Shown here in pieces: positions 3,584 to 29,966 of a stretch of 29,966 bases of DNA. Origin of the DNA: a virus. The translations under genes and the position numbers were made by a program. How positions within the stretch are numbered: the first letter of the stretch is position 1; every line of letters starts with the position of its first letter. The stretch lies in IMG/VR virus record IMGVR_UViG_3300015199_000014, positions 1-29,966 of that record. One strand, written 5' to 3'. The notes under the pieces are model-generated. The model was not told the DNA's origin. It did not search any database and saw only the letters and a list, made by a program, of their open reading frames with translations.

Positions 3584-4317
3584 CGTGTTCTTTCTTTTAT
3601 CCACTCCAAAACTCCAGGTGGGTACGATCCGTTGTATTCACGTAAAGGCTGCTTCCAACCCCAATCAATTTCGTGAACCTTCTTTCCTTCTTTGTTGCCT
3701 TGCTCAAGCCTTGGGTCGACAGATCCATTGTGTGCTGGATGAATCACGGTGCATTTTTCGTAGAAAGCATTTTTGTGTCTTAACAGACCCAGATGGAATA
3801 TTTTGATTCTAGGATTGTCTTTTGATTGTTTGTCTGGCAACAGATAATGATAAGGGTCGCCGTACTGACAATGACTGTACGTTGGAGCAATTCGGATCGC
3901 GAATTCGGTGTGGCAATAATCAATTGGAAGGAGGGTTTTTTCATCTTTGAAAAATATCAGGAGTTTTCCAGCGGTTATGTCATTGGCTTTTTTGACTTCA
4001 GCATGGCATTCGGCTGAATTGTCAAGAACCTCGTCTGCATCCAGTGTGATGTGCATTTTGTGCTGACATTTTTCACGCACAAAGTTTCTCCACTCCGGAC
4101 ACCATAACGGATGGTTTACAGGGTTTGGAACATCGTAATTAATCACACGAGCACCCTGAATCGAATGCATCAATTCAGTGGTGCCATCTGTTGAATTGCT
4201 GTCGCACAGGATGAGTTCGTCCACGACAGGTAATAGAGATCGAGCGGCCAATTCAAGACAGTAATCCAGTTTGATTGCGTTCTTGGCAAAGACAAATCCG
4301 CTGAGACCCTCTTTCAT
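3580..4317 (-). CDS. Family 2 glycosyltransferase (GT-A fold)
   Basis: The 245-aa product carries the GT2 hallmarks. After an N-terminal beta strand (GLSGFVFAKNAIK), the nucleotide-binding segment reads ELILCDSNSTDGT (residues 34-46). The metal-binding DxD motif is DAD (93-95) in ITLDADEVLD. The C-terminal part is rich in His and Tyr (YGDPYHYLLPD; IFHLGLLRHKN), as in acceptor sites of short bacterial GT2 enzymes of the WaaE/KdtX type. It should transfer a sugar from a nucleotide-sugar to an unknown acceptor. Both ends overlap neighbours by ATGA, so it is co-translated with the two methyltransferases. The region looks A+T-richer than the structural genes: 26 G+C in bases 3961-4020 and 27 in 4141-4200, against 33 in 1081-1140. 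That is consistent with acquisition as cargo. Confidence 0.87.
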   Translation of the reverse strand: MKEGLSGFVFAKNAIKLDYCLELAARSLLPVVDELILCDSNSTDGTTELMHSIQGARVINYDVPNPVNHPLWCPEWRNFVREKCQHKMHITLDADEVLDNSAECHAEVKKANDITAGKLLIFFKDEKTLLPIDYCHTEFAIRIAPTYSHCQYGDPYHYLLPDKQSKDNPRIKIFHLGLLRHKNAFYEKCTVIHPAHNGSVDPRLEQGNKEGKKVHEIDWGWKQPLREYNGSYPPGVLEWIKERTR

Positions 4318-4964
4318 AGATGGCTTTTGAACGCAATCGCCTGACCCGTTCCAAGAACAAGAGGTATCGTGTTTGTGTTTGAAAAGAATTCGTCAATTGC
4401 GAGCCTTGCTCCATAGCATTGGTGGAAACCATAGTCATCGAAGACGATTGCACCGCCAACATGGAGTCTGGGCCAGATGAATTTGGTTGATTCGAGAACC
4501 GATTTGTAAATGTCCACATCGACGTGAGCCATGCAAAAACGCAACTGCTCAAGCCCTGAAAAGGAATCCGGAATCAGACCTTGGACCGTTATCAGCTTGT
4601 CCGAATTAACAAACGCTTCAACCTCCACGCAGCTTGTGTCTTTGAAATCTCCCTTTCTATGTTCATCAATCGTCTCGTCTACATCTGGCATTCCAGTGAA
4701 CGTGTCGAATGCATAAATGGTTTTGTTAGACCCTGAATGACGCAAAACGGAATCCATCATCTTCAGGATTCCACCTTTGTAAACTCCGCATTCAACCACT
4801 TCTCCCGGAATGTTTATGCAATTTCTAAGCATCGAAATTATCACATGACATCTTTCTGGAGATACCAGTGTTCCGTTCGCTCCAGTAGCATGGTGTTTCG
4901 TGAAATCGGGATGACCGTTCCACGGTTTAAACATCGGATCGTAAAGGTGAATGTCTGGGATCAT
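4314..4964 (-). CDS. TylF/macrocin O-methyltransferase-like protein
   Basis: This 216-aa protein matches the TylF (macrocin-O-methyltransferase) pattern. Motif I is VVECGVYKGG (residues 56-65) and the acidic strand is IYAFDTFTGMP (about 83-93). The metal-binding acidic centre is AHVDVDIYKS (146-155, Asp149 and Asp151), and GGAIVFDDYGF (170-180) supplies the DDYG motif. Members of this family are SAM- and metal-dependent and often O-methylate sugars on antibiotics or in polysaccharide clusters. The neighbouring glycosyltransferases suggest the target is a transferred sugar, which is inference. Overlaps with the GT9-GT2 fusion upstream and the GT2 gene downstream are both ATGA. The length is typical for compact members, and all key residues are present. 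Confidence 0.87.
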   Translation of the reverse strand: MIPDIHLYDPMFKPWNGHPDFTKHHATGANGTLVSPERCHVIISMLRNCINIPGEVVECGVYKGGILKMMDSVLRHSGSNKTIYAFDTFTGMPDVDETIDEHRKGDFKDTSCVEVEAFVNSDKLITVQGLIPDSFSGLEQLRFCMAHVDVDIYKSVLESTKFIWPRLHVGGAIVFDDYGFHQCYGARLAIDEFFSNTNTIPLVLGTGQAIAFKSHL

Positions 4965-7009
4965 GCCGGGACCGGGTTATGATGAAAATACTTCTGCCAT
5001 TTCCTGAGAAAAACCCTCTGTGAATCGCTCCATAACTGGTCCTTGATTGGACCCGTTGTCTGCGATTCATCATGCACCGCTTTGGCGTCTGCATTGTAAA
5101 TCACCTTCCAACCTTCCTGACGCAGGCGCAAACAAATATCACTGTCTTCGCAGTAGGTGTCGAATTCCTCGTCAAACCCGCGTACTTGATAGAAAGCGGA
5201 TCTCCGAACCAGCACGCAGGCGAAGGTGACGAACTCCATCTCATGTTCGCCATGGAGGCTTGGATTGCGTCTTTTCCAGTCGATATGCCCAAAACCCATG
5301 TCCCCGTTTACGCGGGTTGTACCGCCATGTTGCAGGGTTCCATCTGGATACCACAATTGAGCACCTACCACGGCACATTGAGGATGCCGCCGCATGGTGT
5401 TCAGCATCGCTTCAACGCAACCCGGTTTCAGGTAGCAATCGTCATTCAGGAACAGCAGGAATGAACCAGTGCTGGCGTGGGCTCCGCGCATACAGGTCTT
5501 GCCGAAGCCAGTGCGTTTACCTGTGGAAGGAACGACCGTTACGTCTCTTATTTCACCGTGAAAATCCCCGTCACAAGCCACGATCACCTCTGGACGATCT
5601 CCAAGTTGATTCCAGCACGCAATCAGGCATCGCTTGAATCTTTCGCTTCGTTTGTAAACCGGAATTATCACCGACACCTTCTCCCCATCCAAAGCCGCCA
5701 GTTTTTTGTTTACCGCGTTGGAGATCAATTCTGGAGGAACATCCTGGCAAGGCGGCTTGTCCTTGTCGAATCGGCATGTGAAATCACCACAACGAATGCA
5801 GGTTAACGGGGCATGGACAGCGGTCCAATCGGTCAGGTAACTTAACCGCAACGTCACCGGGATGGCTTGTTCAATGACAACCACCGGTTTGTTAAGTGCT
5901 GCCGCAACGTGCAGCGGGCCGGTGTCCGGGGTCACAACCATGTCCGAGACTGCTATCAAAGCCATCAGATGTCGGAATGTGGGCAGCAGAATCCTCACAA
6001 ACCGTTTCGAGGGTGGATCACCTGTGTACGCCCAGATGACATTGGCATTGATCAGATCAGCGGATTTGACGATGGATTCCTCGGAAATGGTTCTGGACGG
6101 CCAGTAAGCTGACTTGGGAACAAAAGCCACGATCCGACCTTTCAATCCTGATAATTGAAGCCTCATGGCATCCAATTCCTCCCTGGTAAGAGCCAGATGA
6201 GGAACGGCGTTGGATTTGTCCAACGGTGGCAACCCCCTTTTCTTCAACTGATGCTCGGATGATTCCAAAAACAACGTGGCCAGATCCTTGCTTTTTCGTT
6301 CCAGATTATTCTCGTAAGTTTGGTCCAGATCAACATCCACCTTGGCATTTGGGTCCGTGATGAATCCTTCAATGTGCGGATGATGAAGCAACGCCGGTCG
6401 AACCACGTCGCAACATCGCCACCAAACCTTGTAACCCAGAGCGAACAATTTGGTTGCTAACACCGTGGCGGAAATGACATCGCCAAAGGCGCTTTCCCGC
6501 TTGATGGTTATGATGGATTTGACCCCTTCTTCCGGACGCGGGAAGTCGCTCAATAAATAGACCGGGTTTTGCGGGATTCTCTCCAATCGTTGCCAGCAAT
6601 GAGGCGGGAATTTCTCCGGTTCATCTGGTATCAAATTCAATGGCACATGGACCTTGAGTTTCAACTGGCAACCGCACCCGGGAAACTGCGGAGTTCTGCC
6701 ACACACATAAAGCCGGGAATCCAGGGAAGTCCGGATCGACATGAGCGACCTGATTTCAAGCTGTTTACGGACCATTTCAGCCACCGACTCTTCCACCCGC
6801 ATGTAATTGGGTTGGTTATTGGGACATTCAGAGCATATGGAGGCTCTACGTTCCGACAATGATTGCGATACCGGCGTCAACCCTTCTCCGAGCCAGTTTA
6901 TCCCAATAGCCAGTGCCTTGGCGTCGTTCTTAATGCGATGGGCAAGCTCCACAACCTGATTTACGAATGACATTGAGTGATGACGGTGGCGGGTTAAAAT
7001 CTCCACCAT
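4961..7009 (-). CDS. Bifunctional glycosyltransferase: Cys-rich head, GT9 domain, GT2 domain
   Basis: The 682-aa protein has three parts. Residues 50-140 form a Cys-rich head (Cys59, 62, 103, 112, 114, 138, including FPGCGCQLKLKVHVPLNLI) that probably binds zinc. Residues 160-440 look like a GT9 heptosyltransferase fold, with RESAFGDVISATVLATKL near the start and the diagnostic VTPDTGPLHVAAALNKPVV (359-377). That domain also has the C-x2-C-x4-C cluster at 404-412 seen in this family. Residues 444-682 are a GT2 domain, with VSVIIPVYKR, metal site LNDD (521-524) and YCEDSDICLRLRQEGW (619-634). Two transferases in one chain could add successive sugars to one acceptor. ATG at 7009 lies inside the upstream 105-aa gene; ATG at 6973 is an alternative. 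Neither has a good Shine-Dalgarno sequence, so start choice is uncertain. Confidence 0.82.
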   Translation of the reverse strand: MVEILTRHRHHSMSFVNQVVELAHRIKNDAKALAIGINWLGEGLTPVSQSLSERRASICSECPNNQPNYMRVEESVAEMVRKQLEIRSLMSIRTSLDSRLYVCGRTPQFPGCGCQLKLKVHVPLNLIPDEPEKFPPHCWQRLERIPQNPVYLLSDFPRPEEGVKSIITIKRESAFGDVISATVLATKLFALGYKVWWRCCDVVRPALLHHPHIEGFITDPNAKVDVDLDQTYENNLERKSKDLATLFLESSEHQLKKRGLPPLDKSNAVPHLALTREELDAMRLQLSGLKGRIVAFVPKSAYWPSRTISEESIVKSADLINANVIWAYTGDPPSKRFVRILLPTFRHLMALIAVSDMVVTPDTGPLHVAAALNKPVVVIEQAIPVTLRLSYLTDWTAVHAPLTCIRCGDFTCRFDKDKPPCQDVPPELISNAVNKKLAALDGEKVSVIIPVYKRSERFKRCLIACWNQLGDRPEVIVACDGDFHGEIRDVTVVPSTGKRTGFGKTCMRGAHASTGSFLLFLNDDCYLKPGCVEAMLNTMRRHPQCAVVGAQLWYPDGTLQHGGTTRVNGDMGFGHIDWKRRNPSLHGEHEMEFVTFACVLVRRSAFYQVRGFDEEFDTYCEDSDICLRLRQEGWKVIYNADAKAVHDESQTTGPIKDQLWSDSQRVFLRKWQKYFHHNPVPA

Positions 7010-9040: not shown

Positions 9041-12000
9041 GTGTCTACTGTGGACGACGCGAATACTTTGGTGGATGGCTACCTCTCTTCGGAGGCGGGC
9101 GTCGATTCCGGGTTCGTGCCTTCGTTACTTCCAGAAAACCAATGGTCTTGGGCCATAAACACCACTTTTAGGGGTGGATTTCCAAAACCAAGACCTGGGT
9201 ATCAGTTCCGGCAGATGCTGTTTTCCAGTATCGAAGATCAATCCAATTTCAGTAATGGCTTGTTTCAGGGAGCCGGAACGTACATCGACGATCATCGGAA
9301 CGGGTTCCTGATGGCATCTGTTTCCGGCAGGATCTTCACCATTTCATTGATCGATTTCTCGGTTCGTGACCTGACGATTCCCGGCAATCCAAGTGACGCT
9401 TTTGCTCCTCATGCCTGGTTTCAGCAGGCTGAATCCACCACAGTCGTCCAAAACAAGATCGATGCGCCCTTCTTGTGGAACGGCATTTCAGCTCGCCGAT
9501 CCGACGTTAACACGGAGGTTCCGGTAGGAGGACCCATGGCTTACGGCGGAGGCCGGCTTTGGGTGGCTCAAGGGAACCTGTTTTACGGCGGGGATCTGGC
9601 TTATTCCCACACGCCTCCCAGTCGGGATGATGTGATTGGGTTCACGGAAAACACCTACCTCAATGAAGGAGGGGCTTTTGCGGTGGAACGGATGATCACC
9701 GGGATGATCTTCGGCCAGAACATCGACTCCACTCTTGGGGTTAAAGATCTGCTTATCTTCGAGGAAGAAACCGTTCACGCCTTTGATGCGCCGTCAGATC
9801 GAGCGACTTGGAAGGATTTGCAACGGCCCATTGAACGATTCGCCTTGTTAGGACAAGGCTCTTTGTCGCATGAAGGCATCGTTAATCTCAATAGCGACAC
9901 GATTTTCAGAAGTCTTACTGGCATCAATTCCTTCAAGTACGCTCGATCCGCCTTTTCAGATTGGGGCAACACCCCGATTTCCAGGCAGGTTACGCGGGGA
10001 CTGGCTTACGACACCCAGCAACATCTCAACAAGACTTCAGCGGTCAATTTCGAGAATCGGATGTTGATGACCACATTGCCGGAATTGATCAATGGTCATG
10101 GGATGATTCATCACGGTCTGGCGGTCTTGGATTACGATTTGGTTTCTGGCATGGGCCGAAAGCTGAATCCAGCTTGGGAAGGAGTTTGGACAGGACTAAA
10201 GATCCTTAAGCTCATTACGATCACCCATAAATCATCCAAACGCTGTTTCATTTTCGCTTTAAGCGATGATTCAAAGATTGAACTTTGGGAGGTCACAAAG
10301 GAAGCGCGTTTTGATGTTGGCACAAGCCTTTCGGATACTCGTATCAAATGGGTTTTAGAGAGCAAATCGTTCACTTTTGGCAGGCCCAGGGCCATGAAAC
10401 GGCTGGAATCGTCAGAGACATGGTACAACCAGCTTACCGGCCAGATTGACGCCACCTTCAGGTTTCGCAGCAACCTTTCGGATTGCTGGACACCGTGGGC
10501 AACTCAAACGGATTGCGCCAAGTACAAGGATTGTTCCACGGCAATCGAAGGCTGCAATGTGGTGCGTTATCTGCGGTCGCAATCCCGTGGCAGGTTGGGG
10601 CTTCCCATCCCTCCAGATGTGGTCGATCCACAGTCCGGTAGGTACACCAATCAAGGTTACGAACACCAAGTTCGCATTGAACTTGAGGGATACGCGGTAT
10701 TGAACCGGCTGATGCTCACCTGCAATCTAACCGGCGACATGTCGGTGCCTGACATTCGAGGGGTTGGTTGCATTGATGTGCCGGCTGTGGCCTGCAAAAC
10801 TGGCGATTGCGTGGAACTGGAGTGCTGCGATCCGGACGACTTTACCTATCACGTATCGGCTCCGAACAGTGTATTGGGCTACATCACAGGCCGGGTTTAC
10901 CTGAAATCCAATGGCCAACCTGATACCGGCTTAAACGGGATAACGATCCGGTTATTTGCAGACACGAACGTCGATGGGATACCAGACGGGATGGCGCTTA
11001 AAACTACCAGTACTTCTGGTAACGGGATGTATTCGTTCTCCAGCCTGAACCCGGGTTCCTACGTGGTGGTGGCCACAACCCCGACGGGATACCTGCTCAT
11101 CACCGATGTGGATTCCACGGTGGACAACCCGTTGACTCCGGTTGATGTGCCCAATGTCGTCACTTCGGACGGCATGATCCCGGTGACCTTGGCCCCAGGC
11201 GAATCTGACAGTGGAAACGACTTTTACGTCCGAAACACGCAAGGCTACGTCCAGATAGATGGTTTAGGGATGTCCGTGCTGGTCATGGACTCACTGACAG
11301 TGCCCAGCAATGTGCAATACGTCCAGATCGACGGGCTCGGTATGGCGGCTATTGGTGAACAAACGTCGCCTGCGGTTGAGATCGAAGGCCTGTCCTACAG
11401 CGTCACTGGGCAGCAAACGGACTTGGCCGTTGAGATCGAAGGGTTGGCCCTGAGCGTCACTGGGCAGCAAACCTCCCTGGAAGTTCAGCTCGATGGGTTG
11501 GCGTTAAGTCCGATCGGAGCTGAAACTACGCTTGCCTTGCAATTGGACGGTTTGGCGATGTCCGTGATCGCAATGGAGGACCCGCCAGCACCCCCAGCAC
11601 CGGCTTCCATATTGCTCGATACCTATCCGACAGCGGCAGCGGCCTTCTCCGTGAGGAAACTTCGGACGGCTTATGCCGGATCTTGCCTCCGAATCCGCCG
11701 TTCCTCGGACAATACGGAGTTGGACGTCGGGTTTTCTGGTAACGATTTCGATTCCTCGGCGGCAGCCACATTCTGTTCTGGCACAGACGGTTTCGTATCC
11801 AAATGGTATGATCAATCTGGGAACGTGAATCACTTGGTAATGGCCACATCGGCCAATCAGCCGAAGTTGGTCACTGCCGGGGTGGTCGGAACAGTCGGAG
11901 GAAAGGCGCTCCTGACCTTCGGCACCTCCATTCGGATGGATCTGACGACAAATCTGTCCGGCGCTCCGTCCTGGACCATGGAAACGGTTTGGACCCGTAA

Positions 12001-12376
12001 CTCGACGGCTGACATGTCCATGTTGACCGTTAAAACCACAGGAATACCAGCTGTTCGGTATGGCACGGATTTCTATCTGTACGTCGGAACTGATGGGTTT
12101 TACTCGCGGTACGATGCCACTCTTCCGCTCAGGGCGATCGCTTCATTTGTGGCCACGGCATCTCTCCAGAAAGCATTTCTGAACGCTGCCCAGCTAACGC
12201 CGGCTTTGTCCAACTCGGCGCTGGCTGGCGGTCCAAATTTTGAGTGTCTTGGGCACAATACTGTGTCAACATCTCACATGGGCGGCATTCAGGAAGTTGT
12301 CTTCTGGTCATCGGATAAGTCATCCGATGCGCTTTCCATCAACTCAAACGCGAACGCTTACTTCGCAATATTCTGA
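9041..12376 (+). CDS. Giant tail protein: nozzle-like N-terminus fused to adhesin modules
   Basis: The 1111-aa protein is a mosaic. Residues 1-600 are beta-rich with repeated Gly-aromatic blades (NTTFRGGFPKPRPGYQF; GGPMAYGGGRLWVAQGNLFY). This resembles the propeller-like nozzle or stabilisation proteins of short-tailed phages (P22 gp10, T7 gp12 class), by appearance only. Residues about 610-731 are an SdrD_B/Cna_B-like immunoglobulin domain, with ITGRVYLKSNG, DTNVDGIPDG and the Asp-rich end GESDSGNDFYVRN. Residues 736-849 hold six short repeats. Residues 850-1111 resemble the alpha-L-arabinofuranosidase B catalytic-domain-like beta-sandwich often found in tail fibres (LDTYPTAAAAFSVRKLRTAY; FVSKWYDQSGNVNHL). 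A structural base carrying its own receptor-binding tip is the simplest reading. The GTG start is fixed by an in-frame TAG at 9023. It opens the rightward operon. Confidence 0.75.
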   Translation: MSTVDDANTLVDGYLSSEAGVDSGFVPSLLPENQWSWAINTTFRGGFPKPRPGYQFRQMLFSSIEDQSNFSNGLFQGAGTYIDDHRNGFLMASVSGRIFTISLIDFSVRDLTIPGNPSDAFAPHAWFQQAESTTVVQNKIDAPFLWNGISARRSDVNTEVPVGGPMAYGGGRLWVAQGNLFYGGDLAYSHTPPSRDDVIGFTENTYLNEGGAFAVERMITGMIFGQNIDSTLGVKDLLIFEEETVHAFDAPSDRATWKDLQRPIERFALLGQGSLSHEGIVNLNSDTIFRSLTGINSFKYARSAFSDWGNTPISRQVTRGLAYDTQQHLNKTSAVNFENRMLMTTLPELINGHGMIHHGLAVLDYDLVSGMGRKLNPAWEGVWTGLKILKLITITHKSSKRCFIFALSDDSKIELWEVTKEARFDVGTSLSDTRIKWVLESKSFTFGRPRAMKRLESSETWYNQLTGQIDATFRFRSNLSDCWTPWATQTDCAKYKDCSTAIEGCNVVRYLRSQSRGRLGLPIPPDVVDPQSGRYTNQGYEHQVRIELEGYAVLNRLMLTCNLTGDMSVPDIRGVGCIDVPAVACKTGDCVELECCDPDDFTYHVSAPNSVLGYITGRVYLKSNGQPDTGLNGITIRLFADTNVDGIPDGMALKTTSTSGNGMYSFSSLNPGSYVVVATTPTGYLLITDVDSTVDNPLTPVDVPNVVTSDGMIPVTLAPGESDSGNDFYVRNTQGYVQIDGLGMSVLVMDSLTVPSNVQYVQIDGLGMAAIGEQTSPAVEIEGLSYSVTGQQTDLAVEIEGLALSVTGQQTSLEVQLDGLALSPIGAETTLALQLDGLAMSVIAMEDPPAPPAPASILLDTYPTAAAAFSVRKLRTAYAGSCLRIRRSSDNTELDVGFSGNDFDSSAAATFCSGTDGFVSKWYDQSGNVNHLVMATSANQPKLVTAGVVGTVGGKALLTFGTSIRMDLTTNLSGAPSWTMETVWTRNSTADMSMLTVKTTGIPAVRYGTDFYLYVGTDGFYSRYDATLPLRAIASFVATASLQKAFLNAAQLTPALSNSALAGGPNFECLGHNTVSTSHMGGIQEVVFWSSDKSSDALSINSNANAYFAIF
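11246..11587 (+). repeat. Six in-frame tandem repeats, 18-residue (54-bp) unit
   Basis: Units begin at 11246, 11318, 11372, 11426, 11480 and 11534, with pattern (V/L)(Q/E)(I/L)(D/E)GL followed by a variable tail. The first unit is 24 residues and the others 18. Units three and four are nearly identical at the DNA level: a 20-base block at 11399-11418 recurs at 11453-11472. They link the SdrD_B-like domain to the C-terminal sandwich of the tail protein. The unit number could change by recombination, altering fibre length. Confidence 0.9.
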
Positions 12377-21971: not shown

Positions 21972-22264
21972 ATTTCCATGATTAAGGCATCGTACTCCCG
22001 GCTGTAACTCACCCCGCAGCGGATCAAATCAATCACCTGCTGTTCGGTGGCCAGTGTTTCCACGTCGTGAATAGACGGCTCGAACACCAGATTGCAGGTG
22101 TCATCGGATACAGCGCAGTTAATGACGCAGGTATTGTGATGTGCCATGAACTTGGACAGGATCAACATGGCGCACAGATCCCGGTGCGTGCTTGGCGGGT
22201 TTGTGATGCGATCGAATTTGCCACGCTCCGAATCGCGTCGGACCATGAATTGTTTTAGGTTCAT
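21968..22264 (-). CDS. Hypothetical 98-aa protein downstream of the helicase
   Basis: The 98-aa protein has a basic N-terminus (MNLKQFMVRRDSERGKFDR), a middle with five Cys and His residues (LCAMLILSKFMAHHNTCVIN), and an acidic C-terminal half (FEPSIHDVETLATEQQVIDL). It is not a recognisable zinc finger because the Cys spacing is irregular. The hydrophobic middle is too short and polar for a clear membrane span. ATGA overlaps at both ends place it in the operon between the helicase and the 64-aa gene. I do not recognise a function. Confidence 0.6.
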   Translation of the reverse strand: MNLKQFMVRRDSERGKFDRITNPPSTHRDLCAMLILSKFMAHHNTCVINCAVSDDTCNLVFEPSIHDVETLATEQQVIDLIRCGVSYSREYDALIMEI

Positions 22265-23787
22265 TTTATTTTATCTGCAATCTGCTTGAAACTAAGTGAT
22301 TCATATTCACTGGTGAAATCGATGCCAACAGTCTGATCGCCCAAAGCCTCTTTGATGTTGATGGATTTAAGCGCGAGCTTGTCGTCCCGGACCTCGTCCA
22401 CATCCCCGTACTGAAGCCAGTAACTGGTGCAAGGCAGCTTCTGCCCATCCCGATCGATTCGCGCTTCGCATTGCTCCGTGTCCCCAGGCGTCCAAGGCCG
22501 ATCAATCAGGATGACGTAACAAGCGGCGGTCAGGGTGAGGCCAAGGCCGCCTGTCTGGGCGGTGCTGACCCATACCCGGATGCTCGGATCAGACTGGAAC
22601 CGGTCCACCAAACCCTGCCTTGCAGTTATAGGAGTGTCACCAGTAAGAACCAGAGCGCGTTTCTCAAACGCCCTGGCGACCTGATGGACCGGTTCAAGAT
22701 ACTGAGAGAACACGACCACCTTATGGCCTTGTTCAAGAATGTCTTCAATCAACTCGATTGCGTATGGTACCTTAGCTAACGAAGCTGCTTGGTAAGTCTT
22801 GTCAACGAAACCTTTGGCGTCGATGCTGGTTTTCTTTGATGTCAACCAGCCGGTTCTGGCGCTTTGGCAGCTTTGTTTGTACAAAGTGGCATGGCTCGCA
22901 TCCACTTCGGCGTGGACCATGACCCGGGTCATCTTGGGCAGGTCGAGGCAATCCCGCTTCAAATGGCGCAGGATGTACGGCTTTGTGGCGGTCCGTAGTT
23001 CATCCAGGTTGGAACATCCAGTGATATCCCACCGGGACCATCTTGTGCGTTTGGCATCGCAGAAATGTTGCTCGTACCAGGATTTACTTTTGGCCACCGG
23101 AGCCTTCACGGCCCGGAGCAGTGGGTAAAGGTTCGAGGGCCGACCGTTCTTCATGGGCGTTCCGGTGAGCAGGATGCAGGCGACGCAATTGGGAGCAGAC
23201 GTGATGTCCAGGAACGCCTTCCCTCGCTGGGTCTTGGACCCGCCCTGGGAATGACTCGCCTCGTCTGCTATCAGGATGAAATCTGCCTTCTCCGGCCACC
23301 GGATGTTGGACCAGGAACAGATTTCAGGGATTTTATCCAGTTCCATCATTTTGGCTATGGACCTCCACATGTCACGAAGTGTAACTGGGGAGATAATCAC
23401 CATGAAAGCATTCAGGTCTTCAGACAGCTTTTTAGCTGCAACAATGGAAGTGAGCGATTTTCCAAGCCCCATCTCTGCTGCGAGAATCAGCCGTCTCTTC
23501 TCCAAAATGGCTCTCACACCTTCCTGCTGATGTTTCCTCAGGATCTTGCCGTCCGGCAACGGCAATGTCAGGTCCAGTTCCTCCTTCAATGATGCTATCT
23601 CCTGTAACGGGATCGAGTTCAAGTAGGGATTGGACAGCACCCTGGCTTTCTTTTCCAATGGCCAGCACCAGCCAAGTTCACAAGGCTTGCCTCCGGTACC
23701 GATTATTTCGCGCCATTGATTCATTGGAATATGAACCGAAGCGGACAGGATCAGGTGATCTTTGGACGTGAAGAAACGATGGCTCAT
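22261..23787 (-). CDS. SNF2-family DNA helicase/translocase
   Basis: The 508-aa protein has both RecA-like lobes of superfamily 2. Motif I is AAEMGLGKS (residues 103-111), motif II ADEAS (174-178, a DEAS variant of DEAH) and motif III LTGTP (207-211). In lobe two, VVFSQYLEPV is followed by motif V STAQTGGLGLTLT (408-420) and motif VI EQCEARIDRDGQ (438-449), which is close to the SNF2 QAEDRxxRxGQ form. An N-terminal domain of about 80 residues (SASVHIPMNQWREIIGTGGK) resembles the HARP-like or substrate-binding heads of small SNF2 phage helicases. Likely roles are fork remodelling, recombination or protein displacement on duplex DNA. I chose ATG at 23787 for its ATGA overlap; an in-frame start 13 codons earlier would overlap the neighbour more. 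Size is normal for phage members. Confidence 0.9.
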   Translation of the reverse strand: MSHRFFTSKDHLILSASVHIPMNQWREIIGTGGKPCELGWCWPLEKKARVLSNPYLNSIPLQEIASLKEELDLTLPLPDGKILRKHQQEGVRAILEKRRLILAAEMGLGKSLTSIVAAKKLSEDLNAFMVIISPVTLRDMWRSIAKMMELDKIPEICSWSNIRWPEKADFILIADEASHSQGGSKTQRGKAFLDITSAPNCVACILLTGTPMKNGRPSNLYPLLRAVKAPVAKSKSWYEQHFCDAKRTRWSRWDITGCSNLDELRTATKPYILRHLKRDCLDLPKMTRVMVHAEVDASHATLYKQSCQSARTGWLTSKKTSIDAKGFVDKTYQAASLAKVPYAIELIEDILEQGHKVVVFSQYLEPVHQVARAFEKRALVLTGDTPITARQGLVDRFQSDPSIRVWVSTAQTGGLGLTLTAACYVILIDRPWTPGDTEQCEARIDRDGQKLPCTSYWLQYGDVDEVRDDKLALKSINIKEALGDQTVGIDFTSEYESLSFKQIADKIK

Positions 23788-23999
23788 TGCGTGATGGGTT
23801 CCAGTTTCACCTTCTCCACCTCCCAAAACATCTCACCTGATTCGATGACTTTGATGCAGGTGCTTTTGAGTTTACTGTAGCAATCGGCGCACATGAAGGC
23901 TTGGTTCATCTTGGTTGCACGCGGCTTGCCACCCAGCTCGTGCAATCCCCATTCCACCCGGACCAGTACCGGTTTTACGCAGGCCATGTAGCAGGTCAT
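23784..23999 (-). CDS. 71-aa Cys-rich protein, possible zinc-binding
   Basis: The 71-aa product begins MTCYMACVKPVLVRVEWGLH and has two Cys groups: C-x3-C at residues 3 and 7, and C-x2-C in FMCADCYSKLKSTC with a further Cys seven residues on. This suggests one zinc site, possibly of the HNH or ribbon type but without the His residues. I chose ATG at 23999 because it overlaps the DnaC-like gene's stop by ATGA; an in-frame ATG at 24038 would overlap more. Its stop overlaps the helicase start by ATGA. Small zinc proteins next to loader and helicase genes may help assemble replication complexes, but that is only inferred from position. Confidence 0.65.
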   Translation of the reverse strand: MTCYMACVKPVLVRVEWGLHELGGKPRATKMNQAFMCADCYSKLKSTCIKVIESGEMFWEVEKVKLEPITQ

Positions 24000-24622
24000 A
24001 GTCTTCCTTTCAGCCGATAATCCGGCGCATCGATCCATACCGACACAGCCCGCCGAAGCAGGGACGCCACCCGATCGCCATACCTGCCGGCGTACCAGTC
24101 AGGATTCAGACTGGTCGTGGCGAACAACCACTTCTTCTCACACAGTTCAAGGACTTTAAGCAGACGATCAACGCCGGTGCTGGACCAGTCATGTTCAGCA
24201 CCAATTCCATCGATTACAACGAGCATGGATGCCCTAATTGAGCTATCCAGATACTCGTTGAAATACTGCTCAGAATGCTCTTTGGACCACAACTCCACCC
24301 ACTTGATCAGGTGAGTCTCTGGCGTAGTCAGGGTCTTCCTGGATTCCTTGATTTGACGCAACAATGTCTGGCTCAAGCCACAGCGCAGCACCACCTGCGA
24401 TAGCATGGTCTTGCCGGTCCCGGTCAGCCCGCCTATTACGCGCCAGCAGCCTTTGGAAGCGTCACCCGCCACGTAGCGGTTGATAAAGCGGTTGGTCAGG
24501 TCGGCAGCTCGGACGCGGTCCGGATGTTCTTGAGTATCGAAGCCGAACGGGCTGGTGAAGTCGATCAAGACAGGGTTGACTTCGGTGCTTTTCAGAGGAT
24601 CTTGCATTGTTGTTGTTTCCAT
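23996..24622 (-). CDS. DnaC/IstB-like AAA+ ATPase, probable helicase loader
   Basis: The 208-aa protein has the AAA+ core of helicase loaders. Walker A is GLTGTGKT (residues 65-72), Walker B MLVVIDGIGAE (about 133-143) and sensor-1-like FATTSLN (167-173). A C-terminal Arg-rich helix contains a candidate arginine finger (RVASLLRRAVS). DnaC-type proteins load the replicative helicase onto origin DNA. No replicative helicase gene is visible here, so the partner may be the host enzyme or lie outside. The start is uncertain: ATG at 24622 is preceded by a hairpin region, ATG at 24607 is also possible, and a longer form from 24712 would overlap the 54-aa gene by 40 bases. Its stop overlaps the next gene by ATGA. 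The ATPase call is strong, the loader role inferred. Confidence 0.85.
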   Translation of the reverse strand: METTTMQDPLKSTEVNPVLIDFTSPFGFDTQEHPDRVRAADLTNRFINRYVAGDASKGCWRVIGGLTGTGKTMLSQVVLRCGLSQTLLRQIKESRKTLTTPETHLIKWVELWSKEHSEQYFNEYLDSSIRASMLVVIDGIGAEHDWSSTGVDRLLKVLELCEKKWLFATTSLNPDWYAGRYGDRVASLLRRAVSVWIDAPDYRLKGRL

Positions 24623-24633
24623 GAGTTGTTGCG

Positions 24634-24674
24634 GCGGCGTTAGGTTCCTTTCCACCTGACGCCGCTTTTTCTTT
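24634..24674 (+). terminator. Plus-strand intrinsic terminator, antisense within the minus-strand operon
   Basis: On the plus strand a 12-bp stem (24634-24645 pairing with 24654-24665, one G-U pair, the rest Watson-Crick, mostly G+C) closes an 8-base loop and is followed at once by TTTTTCTTT (24666-24674). This is the classic rho-independent form. Read on the minus strand the stem has an A-C mismatch and is followed by a mixed sequence, so it works as a terminator only rightward. All genes here run leftward, so it would stop antisense transcripts. As minus-strand RNA the imperfect hairpin lies in the leader before the DnaC-like gene, with GGAAAGGA in its loop. Confidence 0.75.
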
Positions 24675-24837
24675 AGCCGGTGCCTACCTTGTGCCCCTTT
24701 TTGCGGTGCCAAGCTCGGAAATTCTCTTTAGCTGCCCGGATCTTGGCCTCCGACTTGGACCGGCCACCGACCATGCCCATTTTGCTGAGATGCTTTCGCA
24801 TCACTTCGGGTACATTGCTTAATTCGCTTCGTTTCAT
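24673..24837 (-). CDS. 54-aa basic small protein
   Basis: The gene runs from ATG at 24837 to TAA at 24673-24675, with a good Shine-Dalgarno sequence (AAGGTGA) five bases upstream, overlapping the end of the 221-aa gene. The product begins MKRSELSNVPEVMRKHLSKM and continues through GMVGGRSKSEAKIRAAKENF to a Lys/Arg-rich tail. The GG-R-SKSEAK-x-RAAKEN pattern is like many tiny phage and plasmid proteins with a Gly-Gly-(K/R)-(A/S)-(K/R) core, function unknown. The strong RBS and exact fit between genes make it a real gene. Its high positive charge suggests nucleic-acid binding. A related-looking 55-aa protein lies at 28864 in the other early operon. Its stop codon falls inside the T-run of the antisense terminator. 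Confidence 0.72.
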   Translation of the reverse strand: MKRSELSNVPEVMRKHLSKMGMVGGRSKSEAKIRAAKENFRAWHRKKGHKVGTG

Positions 24838-24841
24838 AAAT

Positions 24842-25507
24842 TCACCTTGGCCTCGCGTTATTCACCCGCCGACATACCACGCCCGGGATGGCTCCGTTTT
24901 TGGCCGAAGCCAGCGCCTTGAGCACACTGATCCTGGCCTCCATCTTGACGGCTTCTGGGTGTGCCGCGTACAGGGTGGCGTAATCCATCACCTCGATCTC
25001 CCAATCCTGTTTCACATTGACCGTGGGCTTGGGAGTCTCAGCGACTGTCTTGATCTCCAATGCCGCCACGCTGCGGCTGTGGTCTTCGTTGATCTGATCA
25101 ACTTCCTCGACGGAAGCGGCGGTGGTGATTGCATCCATGCGCTGTTGTTCCAAGGCCGTCTTTTCCTCTGATTCCCGGGCCAATTCAGCCCGTTGCTTGG
25201 CACCTTGAAGAGCGCCCCAATCGCCAATGAGACGATTGAGGCGCGTGCGCTCGTTGCTCAGGGTGCCTACGAGCCTTTTGGCCGTATCATTGACGAAACG
25301 CTGGGCATCCACATGCGGCCTGACTGCTGCCAGCCGTTTCTCCTCAACGGTGCTCATGAAGCTGTGGATAGCTGTCATGGTCTCCACGGCGTCATGCTCA
25401 TTGAGTTCGTCCACCTCGGTGATCTGAGCCGCATCAATGGCGAGCCCGTTGGCCCGCTCGATGAGCGGACCGCCGAGGCTTTCGATGGTGGCGATTTGGT
25501 TGTCCAT
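24842..25507 (-). CDS. Coiled-coil protein of the recombination/replication operon
   Basis: The 221-aa protein is mainly helical. Residues about 20-150 form a long charged coiled coil (HDAVETMTAIHSFMSTVEEK; ERTRLNRLIGDWGALQGAKQ; ALEQQRMDAITTAASVEEVD). A short C-terminal domain follows, reading KQDWEIEVMDYATLYAAHPE and then VLKALASAKNGAIPGVVCRR. That C-terminal pattern (W-x-(I/V)-E-(V/I)-x-D-Y/L ... IPG(V/L)) recurs, as I remember, in phage coiled-coil proteins next to recombination or SSB genes, but I know of no established function. ATG at 25507 is two bases after the 181-aa gene's stop. It carries the ribosome-binding site of the next gene in its last codons. A structural or scaffolding role in a replication complex is inference. 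Confidence 0.65.
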   Translation of the reverse strand: MDNQIATIESLGGPLIERANGLAIDAAQITEVDELNEHDAVETMTAIHSFMSTVEEKRLAAVRPHVDAQRFVNDTAKRLVGTLSNERTRLNRLIGDWGALQGAKQRAELARESEEKTALEQQRMDAITTAASVEEVDQINEDHSRSVAALEIKTVAETPKPTVNVKQDWEIEVMDYATLYAAHPEAVKMEARISVLKALASAKNGAIPGVVCRRVNNARPR

Positions 25508-25509
25508 GA

Positions 25510-26055
25510 TCAGACCTTCACGTTATCCGAGTTCTTCAGGATTTCCGCCACGTCAGCCACGAAGATCGCAAGCTGGCTCCGGGTGATTGGCTGGTTGAGT
25601 TGCCGCAGGTCTTCCGGCTTGTGGACGCCGCAAGCGGACAGGAAATCGGCCTCGGAAAGCTCCGATTCAGCCAACGCCTTGCGCCAGGCATCAACCCGGC
25701 GCTTGAGTCCATCTGCGTCAACCGGAGCCGGGGTTGACAGAGCCGCCGGGACCACTTTGCCGGTGAACGTAGGCGAAGGGACAGGCTTGGAGGCAGGGGC
25801 GGGTGCGGGTGCGGGTACTATCGCCACATCAGCTGCCCGGGCAACCCGGTTCTCCACGCCCGCCTCTGCCGCAGCGAAGGCGGCGACCAGTATCTCCGTG
25901 GCACGAGCCATGCAGGATTCCGACGTATCGCCGTCTTCGGGCGTAATGACGATCGAAGCGGTACTGTGTTGGTAGCCGGAACCGTCCCGGCGACCACCGA
26001 TGGTGATGGGTCCTAGTTTCATGAGTTTAGATTTTTTCTTTGGTTTAAGTTTCAC
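25510..26055 (-). CDS. Hypothetical 181-aa protein with basic start and Ala/Pro linker
   Basis: The 181-aa protein starts from a GTG whose GTGA overlap with the SSB-like gene's stop fixes it; a later ATG eleven codons in is the alternative. The first 15 residues are strongly basic (KLKPKKKSKLMKLGP). Residues 15-75 may form a small alpha/beta domain (ITIGGRRDGSGYQHSTASIV; SCMARATEILVAAFAAAEAG). A Pro/Ala linker follows (VPAPAPAPASKPVPSPTFT). The C-terminal 70 residues are helical (GLKRRVDAWRKALAESELSE). I do not recognise the family. Its place between the SSB-like and coiled-coil genes suggests a replication or recombination accessory protein, possibly DNA-binding through the basic N-terminus. 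Confidence 0.6.
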   Translation of the reverse strand: MKLKPKKKSKLMKLGPITIGGRRDGSGYQHSTASIVITPEDGDTSESCMARATEILVAAFAAAEAGVENRVARAADVAIVPAPAPAPASKPVPSPTFTGKVVPAALSTPAPVDADGLKRRVDAWRKALAESELSEADFLSACGVHKPEDLRQLNQPITRSQLAIFVADVAEILKNSDNVKV

Positions 26056-26744
26056 AGGGGCACTTCGTCCTCTTCGGGCTGGCCACCGTTTAGATCGGGT
26101 TCCGAATCCAGCTTGGCACCGCCCTGGGGCGGAGCGATCCGGTTTCCACGTTCATCAAGTGCTAGCAAGTTTTCAATGGCCCAGTCGTTAATATAGTCGA
26201 TGATCCAATTCTCCCGGGGTTCCCAGTTGAGAACCTTCTTCCCGTCCTTGAGGAGCGGCTTGCCATTGGCGAGCATGACTTCCTCCGGTTCCGGCAGGAT
26301 ACACTCTTCGTTTTGATGGTCGAGTTCCGGGTGCTTTACCAGCTTTACCCCATTCTGTTTCCAGGACCAGCCAACGATATCACGCCCGTCTTTCTCGGAC
26401 GTGAACATCCACGGCACGCAGGTCAGTGGCTTGGACAAATCTATGCCGCGAATAATTTGAGCGAAGGAAAGCAGGTAGCTGCCCTTTGCGTTGACGCTGA
26501 TGACGATCTTGTCATCGAACCCGATATTGAGGGTCAATCCGAACTTGCCACCCTTGATTTGGACCGAGGTGAGCATCCCGGAATACCCGAAGGCTTTCTG
26601 TCTGTAACTGGTCACCCCAGCCTTTTCGCCCTTGGTCGGAACGTAAGGCTCAGCACCTTCGTCGCCTTCCTTGCAGGTGTGCCACAGAAACCCTCCAGCG
26701 GGTCTCCAGAATGACGTGCGATTTTGTTCTGTAATGAATCCCAT
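26052..26744 (-). CDS. SSB-like protein (candidate single-stranded DNA-binding protein)
   Basis: The 230-aa protein begins with a strand-rich domain (AGVTSYRQKAFGYSGMLTSV; GGKFGLTLNIGFDDKIVISV), compatible with an OB-type barrel. It ends in a flexible tail closing with QPEEDEVPL. An acidic C-terminus ending in hydrophobic residues is the hallmark by which SSB proteins recruit partners (usual form DDDIPF), and phage SSBs keep variants of it. The segment SFAQIIRGIDLSKPLTCVPW recalls SSB-like proteins of other phages, from memory. The presence of a nuclease, helicase and loader in the same operon supports the role. The call is inferred, since no diagnostic motif other than the tail is visible. 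ATG at 26744 lies 38 bases from a perfect operator palindrome. Confidence 0.5.
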   Translation of the reverse strand: MGFITEQNRTSFWRPAGGFLWHTCKEGDEGAEPYVPTKGEKAGVTSYRQKAFGYSGMLTSVQIKGGKFGLTLNIGFDDKIVISVNAKGSYLLSFAQIIRGIDLSKPLTCVPWMFTSEKDGRDIVGWSWKQNGVKLVKHPELDHQNEECILPEPEEVMLANGKPLLKDGKKVLNWEPRENWIIDYINDWAIENLLALDERGNRIAPPQGGAKLDSEPDLNGGQPEEDEVPL

Positions 26745-26781
26745 AACAATGATTTTGTTTAATGTTTACTCAGTAACGGAG

Positions 26782-26796
26782 ACCAATCTGATTGGT
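26782..26796. promoter_or_regulatory. Perfect 15-bp palindrome, operator candidate upstream of the SSB-like gene
   Basis: ACCAATC-T-GATTGGT is a perfect inverted repeat with seven-base arms. It lies 38 bases upstream of the SSB-like start and touches the stop codon of the VRR-NUC gene. The same half-sites occur twice in the divergent control region at 27724-27790. A TTGACA lies close by on the minus strand (26812-26807), but 18 rather than 9 bases from GATTGG, and no clear -10 follows. It could mark an internal promoter of the operon. Confidence 0.6.
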
Positions 26797-27209
26797 TATT
26801 GGCGGTTGTCAAATGCGAATTCTGAAAAGAAGCATTTCACGTCGTCAAGACAGTATGCGATGCATGTTTTCATGCCAGCTATCATGGCTTTAGCGAGATG
26901 TTTACACTGTTCATCGGAAGGTTTTTCTCCAGGTCGTTTCGCTTCAATCGCGAATGCAACTCCGCGCCAAGCCCCAACGAAATCTGGCGTGCCTATCGCG
27001 CATGTTGTCCGCATATCGGTACGGTGCCATACGTAGTAACACTCCCCGATGGAATCCAGATGACGGGCGATTTCCTGTTGGATGACCTTTTCGAGTGGCC
27101 GATTCTTTCGGCTTACTTTAACAGGAGGGGCTGGTGCCGGCATAGTCTTCAGCCAGCCGCGCTGCTTGGCCAGTTGCGATTCGTACCAGTCGGAAGTGAA
27201 TTGGCTCAA
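26796..27209 (-). CDS. VRR-NUC domain nuclease (Holliday junction resolvase-like)
   Basis: The 137-aa protein contains the VRR-NUC form of the PD-(D/E)xK fold. Glu40 lies in the first helix (RPLEKVIQQEIARHL). GTPDFVG (residues 73-79) supplies the metal-binding Asp76, and AFAIEAKRPGEKPSDEQ (85-101) supplies Glu89 and Lys91. Stand-alone phage members of this size are thought to cut branched DNA such as replication or recombination intermediates; the substrate here is not shown. A Pro/Ala segment (MPAPAPPVKVSRK) precedes the domain. The start is TTG at 27209, overlapping the preceding stop as TTGA in the same style as the neighbours. The next gene downstream is the SSB-like gene. Confidence 0.88.
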   Translation of the reverse strand: MSQFTSDWYESQLAKQRGWLKTMPAPAPPVKVSRKNRPLEKVIQQEIARHLDSIGECYYVWHRTDMRTTCAIGTPDFVGAWRGVAFAIEAKRPGEKPSDEQCKHLAKAMIAGMKTCIAYCLDDVKCFFSEFAFDNRQ

Positions 27210-27532
27210 TTGATTGAGATTGCTGATTGTTGGTTTATTTCCAACCAGAAAGAACCTGTAGATCTAATTCCACGTCCAACGGATATTTTCATGCCGTCAC
27301 GCAAATAAACACAGGAGGCCATAGCGCCATCACCAGATCTGGTGATGAGGGTTATGCATGGCCGACTCATGGCTTCTTGCCACGCTGTCCATGCAAGCTG
27401 TATTGATTCGGATATGTAGTCTCCTTTTGTTCCGTGTTGAGAACTTTCGATCCATCTAGATGGAGTTCCCTGCACTGCCGCAGGAAGAGACGAAATCCAC
27501 TTCTCAAACGCTTTTCTGGTTGATTCACTCAT
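27206..27532 (-). CDS. Conserved-looking phage hypothetical protein, 108 aa
   Basis: The 108-aa protein begins MSESTRKAFEKWISSLPAAV and includes a helix, YISESIQLAWTAWQEAMSR (about residues 40-58), with the W-x2-W pattern. FE-x-W near the start followed by a later AW-x-AW-(Q/E)-A helix is a common arrangement in small phage proteins of early regions, with no known function. The C-terminal half is a beta-rich segment (TLITRSGDGAMASCVYLRDG). ATG at 27532 overlaps the stop of the two-helix membrane gene (ATGA). A 20-bp perfect palindrome lies within its coding sequence. Translation continues by overlap into the VRR-NUC gene. Confidence 0.65.
   Translation of the reverse strand: MSESTRKAFEKWISSLPAAVQGTPSRWIESSQHGTKGDYISESIQLAWTAWQEAMSRPCITLITRSGDGAMASCVYLRDGMKISVGRGIRSTGSFWLEINQQSAISIN
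27328..27347. repeat. 20-bp perfect palindrome inside a coding region
   Basis: The half CATCACCAGA is followed immediately by its exact reverse complement, with no spacer. The palindrome lies in the middle of the 108-aa gene, where it encodes part of TLITRSGDG. It differs in sequence from the CCAATC-type operators. It could be a protein-binding site within the operon or chance; no -35/-10 pair is seen next to it. Confidence 0.5.
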
Positions 27533-27714
27533 TTGTGACGCAGGAAAAGGGCGAGGATCATGGCGACGTGGAGCAGGAACGGGCTGCACGACATGACGGC
27601 GGTAATCCATGCGTTGATCTCGTTTTCAACGGCTGAGCAATACACGATGATACCGGTGATCACCGACATTAGAGTGCTGGCCCCGAGGAGCATGAAGAAG
27701 ATTCCACTGGACAT
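27529..27714 (-). CDS. 61-aa two-helix membrane protein, first gene of the leftward operon
   Basis: The 61-aa product consists almost entirely of two hydrophobic helices, GIFFMLLGASTLMSVITGIIV (about residues 4-23 and on) and AVMSCSPFLLHVAMILALFL (about 39-58), joined by a short polar loop (SAVENEINAW). It ends in LRHK. The hairpin shape fits small class II holins, but also anti-defence or superinfection-exclusion membrane proteins made early. As the first gene after the divergent control region it is probably early, which favours the second idea. ATG at 27714 is chosen because longer forms would run back through the operator arm. If the minus-strand promoter is read as TTGACA plus 17 bases, transcription would begin almost at this ATG, giving a leaderless message. 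Confidence 0.65.
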   Translation of the reverse strand: MSSGIFFMLLGASTLMSVITGIIVYCSAVENEINAWITAVMSCSPFLLHVAMILALFLRHK

Positions 27715-27723
27715 GAGAACGAG

Positions 27724-27790
27724 GCTAAACCAATCAGATTGGATTGTCAAGAAGGTGTTTCTTTTGACAAACAAAACTGATTGGTTAGGC
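27724..27790. promoter_or_regulatory. Mirror-symmetric divergent promoter/operator region
   Basis: Two 27-bp arms, 27724-27750 and the reverse complement of 27764-27790, match at 22 of 27 positions around a 13-bp centre. Each arm contains a perfect -35 box TTGACA (minus strand 27750-27745, plus strand 27764-27769). At equal distance inward to its own gene each carries an operator: ACCAATC-A-GATTGGA (27729-27743) and ACAAAAC-T-GATTGGT (27771-27785). The operators fill the spacers where -10 boxes would follow. The -10 candidates are poor (TAGCCT on minus, TAGGCT on plus, 3 of 6). The operator centres are 42 bp apart, four helical turns, so two dimers would lie on one face of the DNA. Confidence 0.75.
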
Positions 27791-27792
27791 TG

Positions 27793-28641
27793 ATGGCGCA
27801 AATCAATTGCACAACATCAATGAAAATCAACGTATCGGCAGAAATAACGAAAATCACCCCGGAAACCGCCACCGAATGGCTGGTTGAAAAGTGGGGAGAA
27901 CAACGGGTTGTCCGCAAAGGTCACATTGACCGGCTGGCGGCTGACATGGAATCGGGCCGTTTCAAGATCAGTCCCGATGCCATATTGCGAATCAAAGGCA
28001 AGCTGGCCAACGGTCAGCATCGCCTGAGTGCGGTCATTCAGTCTGGCAAGCCCCAGCATTTCCTGGTCATGGAATCAAATGACGAGGAACTCTACAAAGT
28101 AATCGATGCCGGTTTGCGCCGAACTGTGTCCGATGGATTGATTGGTGTTCATTTCGCCAAATCGGTGCCATCAATCGCACGCTGGGTGCAAGGCTATGAG
28201 TCAGGGTTCATTAAGACGAGCGGTAGAACTGCCAGTGAAGCGGGACGGAATGGATCTCATAATCCAACCCAATCCGAACTGATCGATTATTGCCTGAGCA
28301 ATCAGGATATCCTGGTAGAAGCCGCCAGCTTCACCAATCCACTCTACAGCCAGACCAAGCTCCTGCCGCTGTCCATTGGAGCAGCGGTGTACGTCATCGC
28401 TGTAACCCGGACCGGGCAATCGGACAAGGTGAAAGCGTTTTTAGAGCAAGTGTACGTCGATGGCGGCAACACCTCCGCCGGTGATTTGCGCAATCGGTTG
28501 ATAGCCAATCATGGAGCGCGCGCAAAACTCCAAAAAGGTTATGTCTTTGGAATCACCATCAAAGCACTCAAATCCTACCTGAACGGCACCCGCCCTGGCG
28601 TCCTGAAATGGACCAGCGATGAAGGATTGCCCGTCATTTAA
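27793..28641 (+). CDS. ParB-like (ParB/sulfiredoxin fold) phage protein
   Basis: The 282-aa protein has an N-terminal ParB-like fold of the kind widespread in phages. It shows ITPETATEWLVEKW (residues 21-34), HIDRLAADMESGRF (44-57) and the signature NGQHRLSAV (73-81), in which GQHR corresponds to the nucleotide-binding loop GxxR of ParB. A strand and helix with DAGLRRTVSDGL follow. The C-terminal half is helical and less characteristic (LLPLSIGAAVYVIAVTRTGQ; GITIKALKSYLNG). Phage members are annotated as ParB-like nucleases or transcription factors, but few have a proven role; NTP binding and DNA contact are likely. ATG at 27793 has a weak AGG upstream. If the plus-strand promoter is as proposed, the later ATG at 27820 is the real start. 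No partner ParA is seen. Confidence 0.82.
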   Translation: MAQINCTTSMKINVSAEITKITPETATEWLVEKWGEQRVVRKGHIDRLAADMESGRFKISPDAILRIKGKLANGQHRLSAVIQSGKPQHFLVMESNDEELYKVIDAGLRRTVSDGLIGVHFAKSVPSIARWVQGYESGFIKTSGRTASEAGRNGSHNPTQSELIDYCLSNQDILVEAASFTNPLYSQTKLLPLSIGAAVYVIAVTRTGQSDKVKAFLEQVYVDGGNTSAGDLRNRLIANHGARAKLQKGYVFGITIKALKSYLNGTRPGVLKWTSDEGLPVI

Positions 28642-28820: not shown

Positions 28821-28863
28821 GGGGCGGGTGAAATGGGGGTTGACAACGTAACCGGGTAGCTTT

Positions 28864-29031
28864 ATGGATTACGAAATGCTTAACGAAGAGGCTAAAAAGT
28901 TCTTTCGGGAACAAGGCGCAATCGGTGGGGCGAAGGTCCGCGGAAAGAAAAAGAGGTGTTCCGCAGCCCATTACCGGCGGATGGTGGAGATCCGGAAGGC
29001 CAATGCGGCCAAGCGAAAGGGGGCGGCATGA
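28864..29031 (+). CDS. 55-aa basic small protein with Gly-Gly core
   Basis: The gene runs from ATG at 28864 to TGA at 29029-29031, its stop overlapping the HNH start as ATGA. The product has an acidic N-terminus (MDYEMLNEEAKKFFREQG), then AIGGAKVRGKKKRCSAAHYR and a Lys/Ala-rich end. The GG-x-(K/A)-x-(K/R) core followed by a basic helix resembles the 54-aa protein at 24673-24837 and many tiny phage or plasmid proteins of unknown function. DNA or RNA binding is plausible from charge. The preceding 43 bases (28821-28863) contain a TTGACA but no acceptable -10 box. Confidence 0.62.
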   Translation: MDYEMLNEEAKKFFREQGAIGGAKVRGKKKRCSAAHYRRMVEIRKANAAKRKGAA

Positions 29032-29534
29032 GCGAAAGAAGCTACAGTGACAAGTTGCGCGATCCGAGATGGCAGAAGGTCCGATTGAAAGTGATGGAGC
29101 GGGATGGGTTTAAGTGTCGTGATTGTGGGAATGATAAGGAGACACTGCACGTACACCATTGCTTTTACGAGCGAGGAGATCCGTGGAAGACTGGCGAGGC
29201 GTTTCTTTTGACGCTTTGCGAGAAGTGTCATTTCGACCGCGATTCTCTCGAAACTGACGGCAGAAGGATGCTTGGCCAGATGTTTTCCAAAATTTACGTC
29301 CAAGAAGGACTGTGCGAGAATGATTTAAGGGAGTTCGTCATATCTATGGCATTAGGCGTAACTGGGCTCTTTAATGAACCTGAATACGATCCGCCGATAG
29401 TTGTCGGAGCATCTAAATTTGATTACTTGAATGATTTACGTTGGTATCTGTACGCCTGTGATCACCCGGAGGCGCGTAAGGCTTACGAAGAGGTTACCGG
29501 GACCCATCCTGAATGGAGAAAGTTCAACCGATGA
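29028..29534 (+). CDS. HNH endonuclease
   Basis: The 168-aa protein has a complete HNH nuclease site with a structural zinc. CRDC (Cys30, Cys33) is followed by LHVHHCFY (catalytic His residues at 41-44), and CEKCH (Cys64, Cys67, His68) completes the site. The N-terminal lead YSDKLRDPRWQKVRLKVMER is typical of stand-alone HNH proteins in phages, where they act in packaging, homing or DNA nicking. The C-terminal 100 residues are helical with no second recognised domain (FDYLNDLRWYLYACDHPE). The chosen ATG at 29028 overlaps the preceding stop by ATGA; an in-frame start 24 codons upstream is unlikely. Its stop overlaps the initiator gene. Being in an early operon, it is more likely a replication or homing nuclease than the packaging HNH seen beside terminase genes. 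Confidence 0.9.
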   Translation: MSERSYSDKLRDPRWQKVRLKVMERDGFKCRDCGNDKETLHVHHCFYERGDPWKTGEAFLLTLCEKCHFDRDSLETDGRRMLGQMFSKIYVQEGLCENDLREFVISMALGVTGLFNEPEYDPPIVVGASKFDYLNDLRWYLYACDHPEARKAYEEVTGTHPEWRKFNR

Positions 29535-29966
29535 GAATCCGAGCCATCAAGCCAGAATTCTTCCTGCACCACTCACTTTTCCGTGCCGAGGTTGAGACCG
29601 GGCTTCCACTCCGGCTGGCCTTCATTGGACTCTGGTGCGCCGCCGATCGCGATGGGAGATTCAAGTGGGAACCTGAGCGCCTGGGCGTGGAGATTTTACC
29701 CTACGACAAAGTGGACTTTTCACGCGTGCTCGACGCGTTGACAACGCGTGGATATCTAGAAAAGTACCGGTGCCAATCCTGGATTTTCGGTTGCATTCCT
29801 TCGTTCCTGAAGCATCAGCACATCAATCCCAAGGAGAGGCCGTCGCAAATCCCTAACAAGTCGGAAGGTGAGATGTTAACGGTTGAAGATAAAGAACTTA
29901 CGACGCGTGAGTCACGCGTAAACCACGCGATACCTGACTTGGAATATCCTTTTGCTCAGGAAGGGA
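29531..29966 (+). CDS. Replication initiator/organiser-like protein (3' end outside window)
   Basis: The visible 145 residues begin MRIRAIKPEFFLHHSLFRAE and continue with RLAFIGLWCAADRDGRFKWE, then ILPYDKVDFSRVLDALTTRG and FGCIPSFLKHQHINPKERPS. This is the familiar start of phage replication proteins of the O/DnaD-like class, which bear an N-terminal winged-helix domain and bind the phage origin. Asp-Arg-(D/E)-Gly-Arg-Phe and PYD-x-VDF are the recognisable motifs. The C-terminal part, where a helicase- or loader-binding domain would lie, is beyond the edge. ATG at 29531 overlaps the HNH stop as ATGA. Its coding sequence contains two clusters of ACGCGT repeats that may be its own origin, as in lambda gene O. 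Confidence 0.8.
   Translation, partial: MRIRAIKPEFFLHHSLFRAEVETGLPLRLAFIGLWCAADRDGRFKWEPERLGVEILPYDKVDFSRVLDALTTRGYLEKYRCQSWIFGCIPSFLKHQHINPKERPSQIPNKSEGEMLTVEDKELTTRESRVNHAIPDLEYPFAQEG
29722..29930. repeat. ACGCGT repeats at 11-bp spacing, candidate origin iterons
   Basis: ACGCGT occurs at 29722, 29733 and 29744, exactly 11 bp apart, and again at 29903 and 29914 with a one-base variant ACGCGA at 29925, also 11 bp apart. The five bases between copies vary. Since 11 is not a multiple of three, the copies fall in different reading phases of the initiator gene and cannot be explained by a protein repeat. Such short direct repeats on one helical face inside an initiator gene resemble origin iterons. 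Confidence 0.65.

Follow-up and report, generated by a model that had tools for sequence, protein, structure and literature searches.

Repressors and MerR-type activators commonly bind in the spacer between the −35 and −10 elements, and the operators of lambda are 17-bp dyads of 8-1-8 geometry. The closest described case to the locus reported here is the operators of the mycobacteriophage BPs gp33 repressor. The BPs early-promoter operator OR is placed between the −10 and −35 elements, within a divergent intergenic region, and other gaps contain additional palindromic and degenerate operator copies (PMC4557955). Two other systems bear on the genes beside our locus: DndB of Salmonella, a DGQHR-family protein, binds to a pair of palindromes in the promoter of its own gene (PMC4507180), and KorB of plasmid RK2, a ParB-family protein, represses transcription of replication genes at dispersed operators (PMC11790492).

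The window, which is the whole 29,966-nucleotide stretch of a virus record (IMGVR_UViG_3300015199_000014), contains a 67-base mirror-image stretch at 27724 to 27790 that separates two oppositely transcribed early gene sets of a phage. The earlier note had described two inverted arms, each with a TTGACA, and recomputation gave the same result: the reverse complement of 27724 to 27750 (TTGACAATCCAATCTGATTGGTTTAGC) and 27764 to 27790 (TTGACAAACAAAACTGATTGGTTAGGC) are identical at 22 of 27 positions. Nowhere else in the window does a pair of inverted 27-bp arms 0 to 40 bp apart attain 22 matches, and in 30 windows simulated with a first-order Markov model the best pair never exceeded 21 of 27, with most at 18 to 20. 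The spacing given in that note also holds, since the putative operator centers at 27736 and 27778 are 42 bp apart, or 4.0 helical turns at 10.5 bp. The mirrored arms and the palindrome that they share are thus a genuine observation. The control elements are the following:

27728 to 27744, no strand assigned: putative operator L, AACCAATC-A-GATTGGAT, center 27736
27770 to 27786, no strand assigned: putative operator R, AACAAAAC-T-GATTGGTT, center 27778
26781 to 26797, no strand assigned: putative operator 3, GACCAATC-T-GATTGGTT, perfect 13-bp core, center 26789
27745 to 27750, minus strand: −35-like TTGACA of the leftward promoter, by consensus match only
27722 to 27727, minus strand: weak, putative −10-like TAGCCT, 17 bp from TTGACA
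27764 to 27769, plus strand: −35-like TTGACA of the rightward promoter, by consensus match only
27786 to 27791, plus strand: weak, putative −10-like TAGGCT, 16 bp from TTGACA
26807 to 26812, minus strand: −35-like TTGACA preceding operator 3, within the final part of the VRR-NUC-like gene

The core of operator L is a perfect 13-bp palindrome (CCAATC-A-GATTGG), and the inner half of operator R is degenerate (CAAAAC-T-GATTGG, two mismatches). The third copy, GACCAATCTGATTGGTT at 26781 to 26797, was absent from the earlier note; it lies about 950 bp from the mirrored arms in the gap before a gene, where it overlaps the VRR-NUC-like gene's stop codon and stands 36 bp before the next start codon (ATG, 26744). 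Three sites within 3 mismatches of AACCAATCWGATTGGTT are present in the 30-kb window versus 0.12 expected, a number reached in none of 100 shuffles. Perfect 6-n-6 palindromes that repeat within the window form two families, one of them CCAATC-N-GATTGG, and any repeated 6-1-6 palindrome appeared in 3 of 100 simulations. Our own gene calls put coding sequence at 98.7% of the record (noncoding, 1.3%), with only five gaps that measure 20 nt or longer, and two of these hold the three sites within them or at their edge, each site upstream of a gene. Because many neighboring genes overlap by a few bases, the gap at 26745 to 26795 inside the leftward operon is conspicuous, and it is the only other gap of that operon upstream of its replication and recombination genes. 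A terminator scan gave no terminator at operator 3, and searches for RNA families and tRNAs found none.

TTGACA occurs 14 times on the two strands of the window, and a copy on the promoter strand stands upstream of all three palindromes. The window thus has dyad sites downstream of TTGACA at three putative early promoters, with the same palindrome recurring at 27728, 27770 and 26781. At operator 3 the palindrome stands 9 bp farther from TTGACA than it does in the arms, so these two behave as separate elements, as a −35 and an operator would. The −10 boxes are as poor as the earlier note had said: TAGCCT (left) and TAGGCT (right) are the best in the arms, both fitting a relaxed TAnnnT, the third site offers at most 3 of 6, and no −10 better than 3 of 6 is present at any of the three sites. 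Transcription is predicted to start near 27715 leftward, i.e., at the ATG at 27714, and near 27798 rightward; the leftward message is possibly leaderless. Few genes of the record have a recognizable Shine-Dalgarno sequence, and the host probably does not rely on one. A further TTGACA at 28840 to 28845 (plus strand) lies in the gap before a 55-aa basic gene and has no operator.

The genes of the two operons are arranged as follows:

27529 to 27714, minus strand: leftward gene 1, 61 aa, looks membrane-bound by eye; a homologue search gave none
27206 to 27532, minus strand: leftward gene 2, 108 aa, weak phrog_343 match, ATGA overlap with gene 1
26796 to 27209, minus strand: leftward gene 3, VRR-NUC-like nuclease (weak Pfam match, PHROG endonuclease)
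26052 to 26744, minus strand: 230-aa orphan, first gene past operator 3
22261 to 26055, minus strand: rest of the leftward block, including small open reading frames and a 181-aa protein
24842 to 25507, minus strand: exonuclease-family protein
23996 to 24712, minus strand: DnaC-like loader
22261 to 23826, minus strand: helicase
27820 to 28641, plus strand: rightward gene 1, ParB-like protein (DGQHR-type, phrog_5931)
29028 to 29534, plus strand: HNH endonuclease
29531 to 29965, plus strand: replication initiator, cut by the record end

The rightward order is ParB-like protein, two small proteins, HNH endonuclease and replication initiator, inside whose gene the record, a fragment, ends. The 230-aa orphan is possibly a single-stranded-DNA-binding protein, which is a guess. 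Two small basic proteins encoded at 24673 to 24837 and 28864 to 29031 look alike by eye (GGxxxRxKxR), although BLASTP finds no alignment between them.

The locus resembles the gp33 system of BPs in having a palindrome in the promoter spacer, a divergent region, extra copies in gaps, and both perfect and degenerate sites. In BPs, however, the region is bordered by the repressor gene, and the repressor is made from one of the divergent promoters, whereas no such gene is recognized here; the arms of our locus are mirror images, and the BPs operator differs in sequence (CGACATATGTCG). Short dyad sites of 17 bp and 8-1-8 geometry, overlapping divergent putative early promoters, are likewise reminiscent of OL/OR of lambda, P22 and 434, but here each promoter has a single site rather than three, no CI/Cro pair is recognized, and the third site lies inside the leftward operon.

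On the evidence of this arrangement, the region is probably the early control region of a tailed phage in which one dimeric, phage-encoded regulator represses three early promoters. The proposal of the earlier note that a single regulator serves both operons is supported and can be extended, as the same palindrome occurs a third time and TTGACA precedes each site. Back-to-back promoters with a consensus −35 and a weak −10 would start a leftward unit (a small, possibly membrane-bound protein, a nuclease, and replication and recombination genes) and a rightward unit (ParB-like protein, HNH endonuclease and initiator). The presumed dimer would bind the 13- to 17-bp palindrome that fills the −35/−10 spacer and exclude RNA polymerase at both divergent promoters, and operator 3 would cover an internal promoter before the second leftward block, so that all three units could be switched off or on in concert. 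Operators L and 3, the perfect sites, would be filled before the degenerate site R, which implies that the initiator operon would be the last to be repressed. No repressor or helix-turn-helix (HTH) protein was recognized among the early proteins searched of this fragmentary record. In phages with related initiators, a recognizable regulator (CI/Cro or a small HTH protein) adjoins the initiator operon, and in the lambda-like ones the initiators stand downstream of such regulators. Most likely, the gene of the regulator lies in the part of the genome that the record lacks.

Other explanations of the same sites were weighed against repression by one such dimer. The palindromes are unlikely to be activator sites at promoters whose firing requires a phage activator or a modified polymerase: the consensus −35 paired with so poor a −10 at all three sites speaks for it, but MerR promoters need spacers of 19 to 20 bp, at which no −10-like hexamer is present here, and TAGCCT and TAGGCT may serve as −10 boxes of a relaxed TAnnnT type. 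Autoregulation by the ParB-like protein, which would bind the palindromes itself as DndB or KorB does, is quite unlikely. Its gene adjoins the operators; the protein carries an NGQHRL motif and matches ParB/Srx-type N-terminal domains with weak scores, 4 of the family's 49 members touch the Pfam DndB model (best E value, 2.5e-4), and a confident AlphaFold model (pLDDT 93), helical in its C-terminal half, has a bacterial ParB as its best solved match (probability 0.94, E value 0.038). This structural match is weak (TM 0.32), however, and no full-length match to ParB was obtained. The DndB motif is TACG-N10-CGTA, and DNA binding by the protein of our window is hypothetical; KorB has a DNA-binding domain and a KorA partner, which are hypothetical for the protein here. 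Comparison with relatives does not support the earlier note in naming this protein as a possible regulator: the 9,178-base record of a 71% identical homologue (L003/G003) lacks a site at up to 2 mismatches, relatives at the 39% level lack such an operator next to them, and the relative in phage phiAH14a is found in mid-operon, behind a separately annotated repressor/Cro pair. It is very unlikely that this DGQHR-type, ParB-superfamily phrog_5931 protein represses through the mirrored palindromes and the third site, perhaps as a CTP-dependent sliding clamp, in an early switch without a CI/Cro-type repressor.

A replication origin or a partition/centromere site in the mirrored region is highly unlikely, despite the ParB-like and initiator genes nearby and the ability of the 67-nt arm pair to fold as a long hairpin (DNA z score, −5.5). 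All five ACGCGT copies of the window are found in the initiator gene, in two clusters of exact 11-bp period (29722, 29733 and 29744; 29903 and 29914), and ACGCGA follows at 29925, which makes 29722 to 29930 iteron-like. The initiator genes of MW202482 and of Vibrio phages VvAW1 and 1.131.O show the 11-bp spacing of ACGCGT/CGCGT as well, and the Bordetella and Pseudomonas initiators checked lack it. Given these iterons, the initiator gene probably contains the origin, and the control-region palindromes do not serve as iterons of it; direct iterons were not found at the arms. Moreover, the remote third palindrome precedes a gene, the ParB-like proteins differ from canonical ParB, and no ParA turned up among the proteins searched. 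Some temperate phages use the LexA of their host, and the phage might have borrowed the sites of such a host regulator, but the chance of this is slim: AACCAATCNGATTGGTT is found in 71 stretches in 257 Gb versus about 60 expected by chance (our own estimate), scattered over phyla and in no case with the arm architecture, and no host regulon of the motif was seen in 85,000 genomes. Chance symmetry, for which nothing speaks beyond the small number of sites, is contradicted by the shuffles, by the arm and palindrome simulations and by the placement in gaps, and its probability is negligible.

A homologous control region was found neither in viral contigs, among the matches listed, nor in phage records at the DNA level. 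TTGACANNCNANNCNGATTGGTT matched 12 stretches in viral contigs, none of them with the palindrome, and these look like chance matches in coding sequence; ACCAATCNGATTGGT occurs in viral contigs at 80 loci at least, none with the mirrored architecture among the matches listed. In viral contigs, no relatives were found of the replication helicase, of the orphan that follows operator 3 or of the initiator, and bacterial genomes yielded none of the ParB-like protein. Palindromes upstream of 46 genes of the ParB-like family (32 versus 15 in shuffles) were discarded as candidates; they overlap, are phage specific and are probably mixed with terminators. The record of the terminase relative (G001; 66%) has structural genes only in common with the window and contains no site better than 2 mismatches, and the terminase gave weak matches or none in sampled genomes (the G005 and G006 phyla and the G010 class).

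Several features outside the control region were also recorded. The G001 record (L017, 61.9 kb) has two diverged tail-gene sets, and two palindromes at about 10.9 kb in it have second copies at about 61.8 kb, each offset by 50,878 bp, which suggests a repeated segment. In the window, a 1,111-aa virion protein (9041 to 12376; phrog_10356 match) has central repeats of the type DGLxxSVxGQQTxxAVEIEGL. A glycosyltransferase-like gene (4961 to 7009) and its neighbors, together 3074 to 7009, are inserted between the gene of a 743-aa structural protein (831 to 3062) and the terminase-like gene, and this insert is partly common to G001.

The proposed switch is of an ordinary phage type, and its operator sequence is new. 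Should the ParB-like protein be the regulator after all, phrog_5931, a phage family without a function, would gain one. The three palindromes provide a clear operator candidate for a phage lineage of which few relatives are available, and the operator sequence would be a way to recognize the missing regulator once the remaining genome is known.
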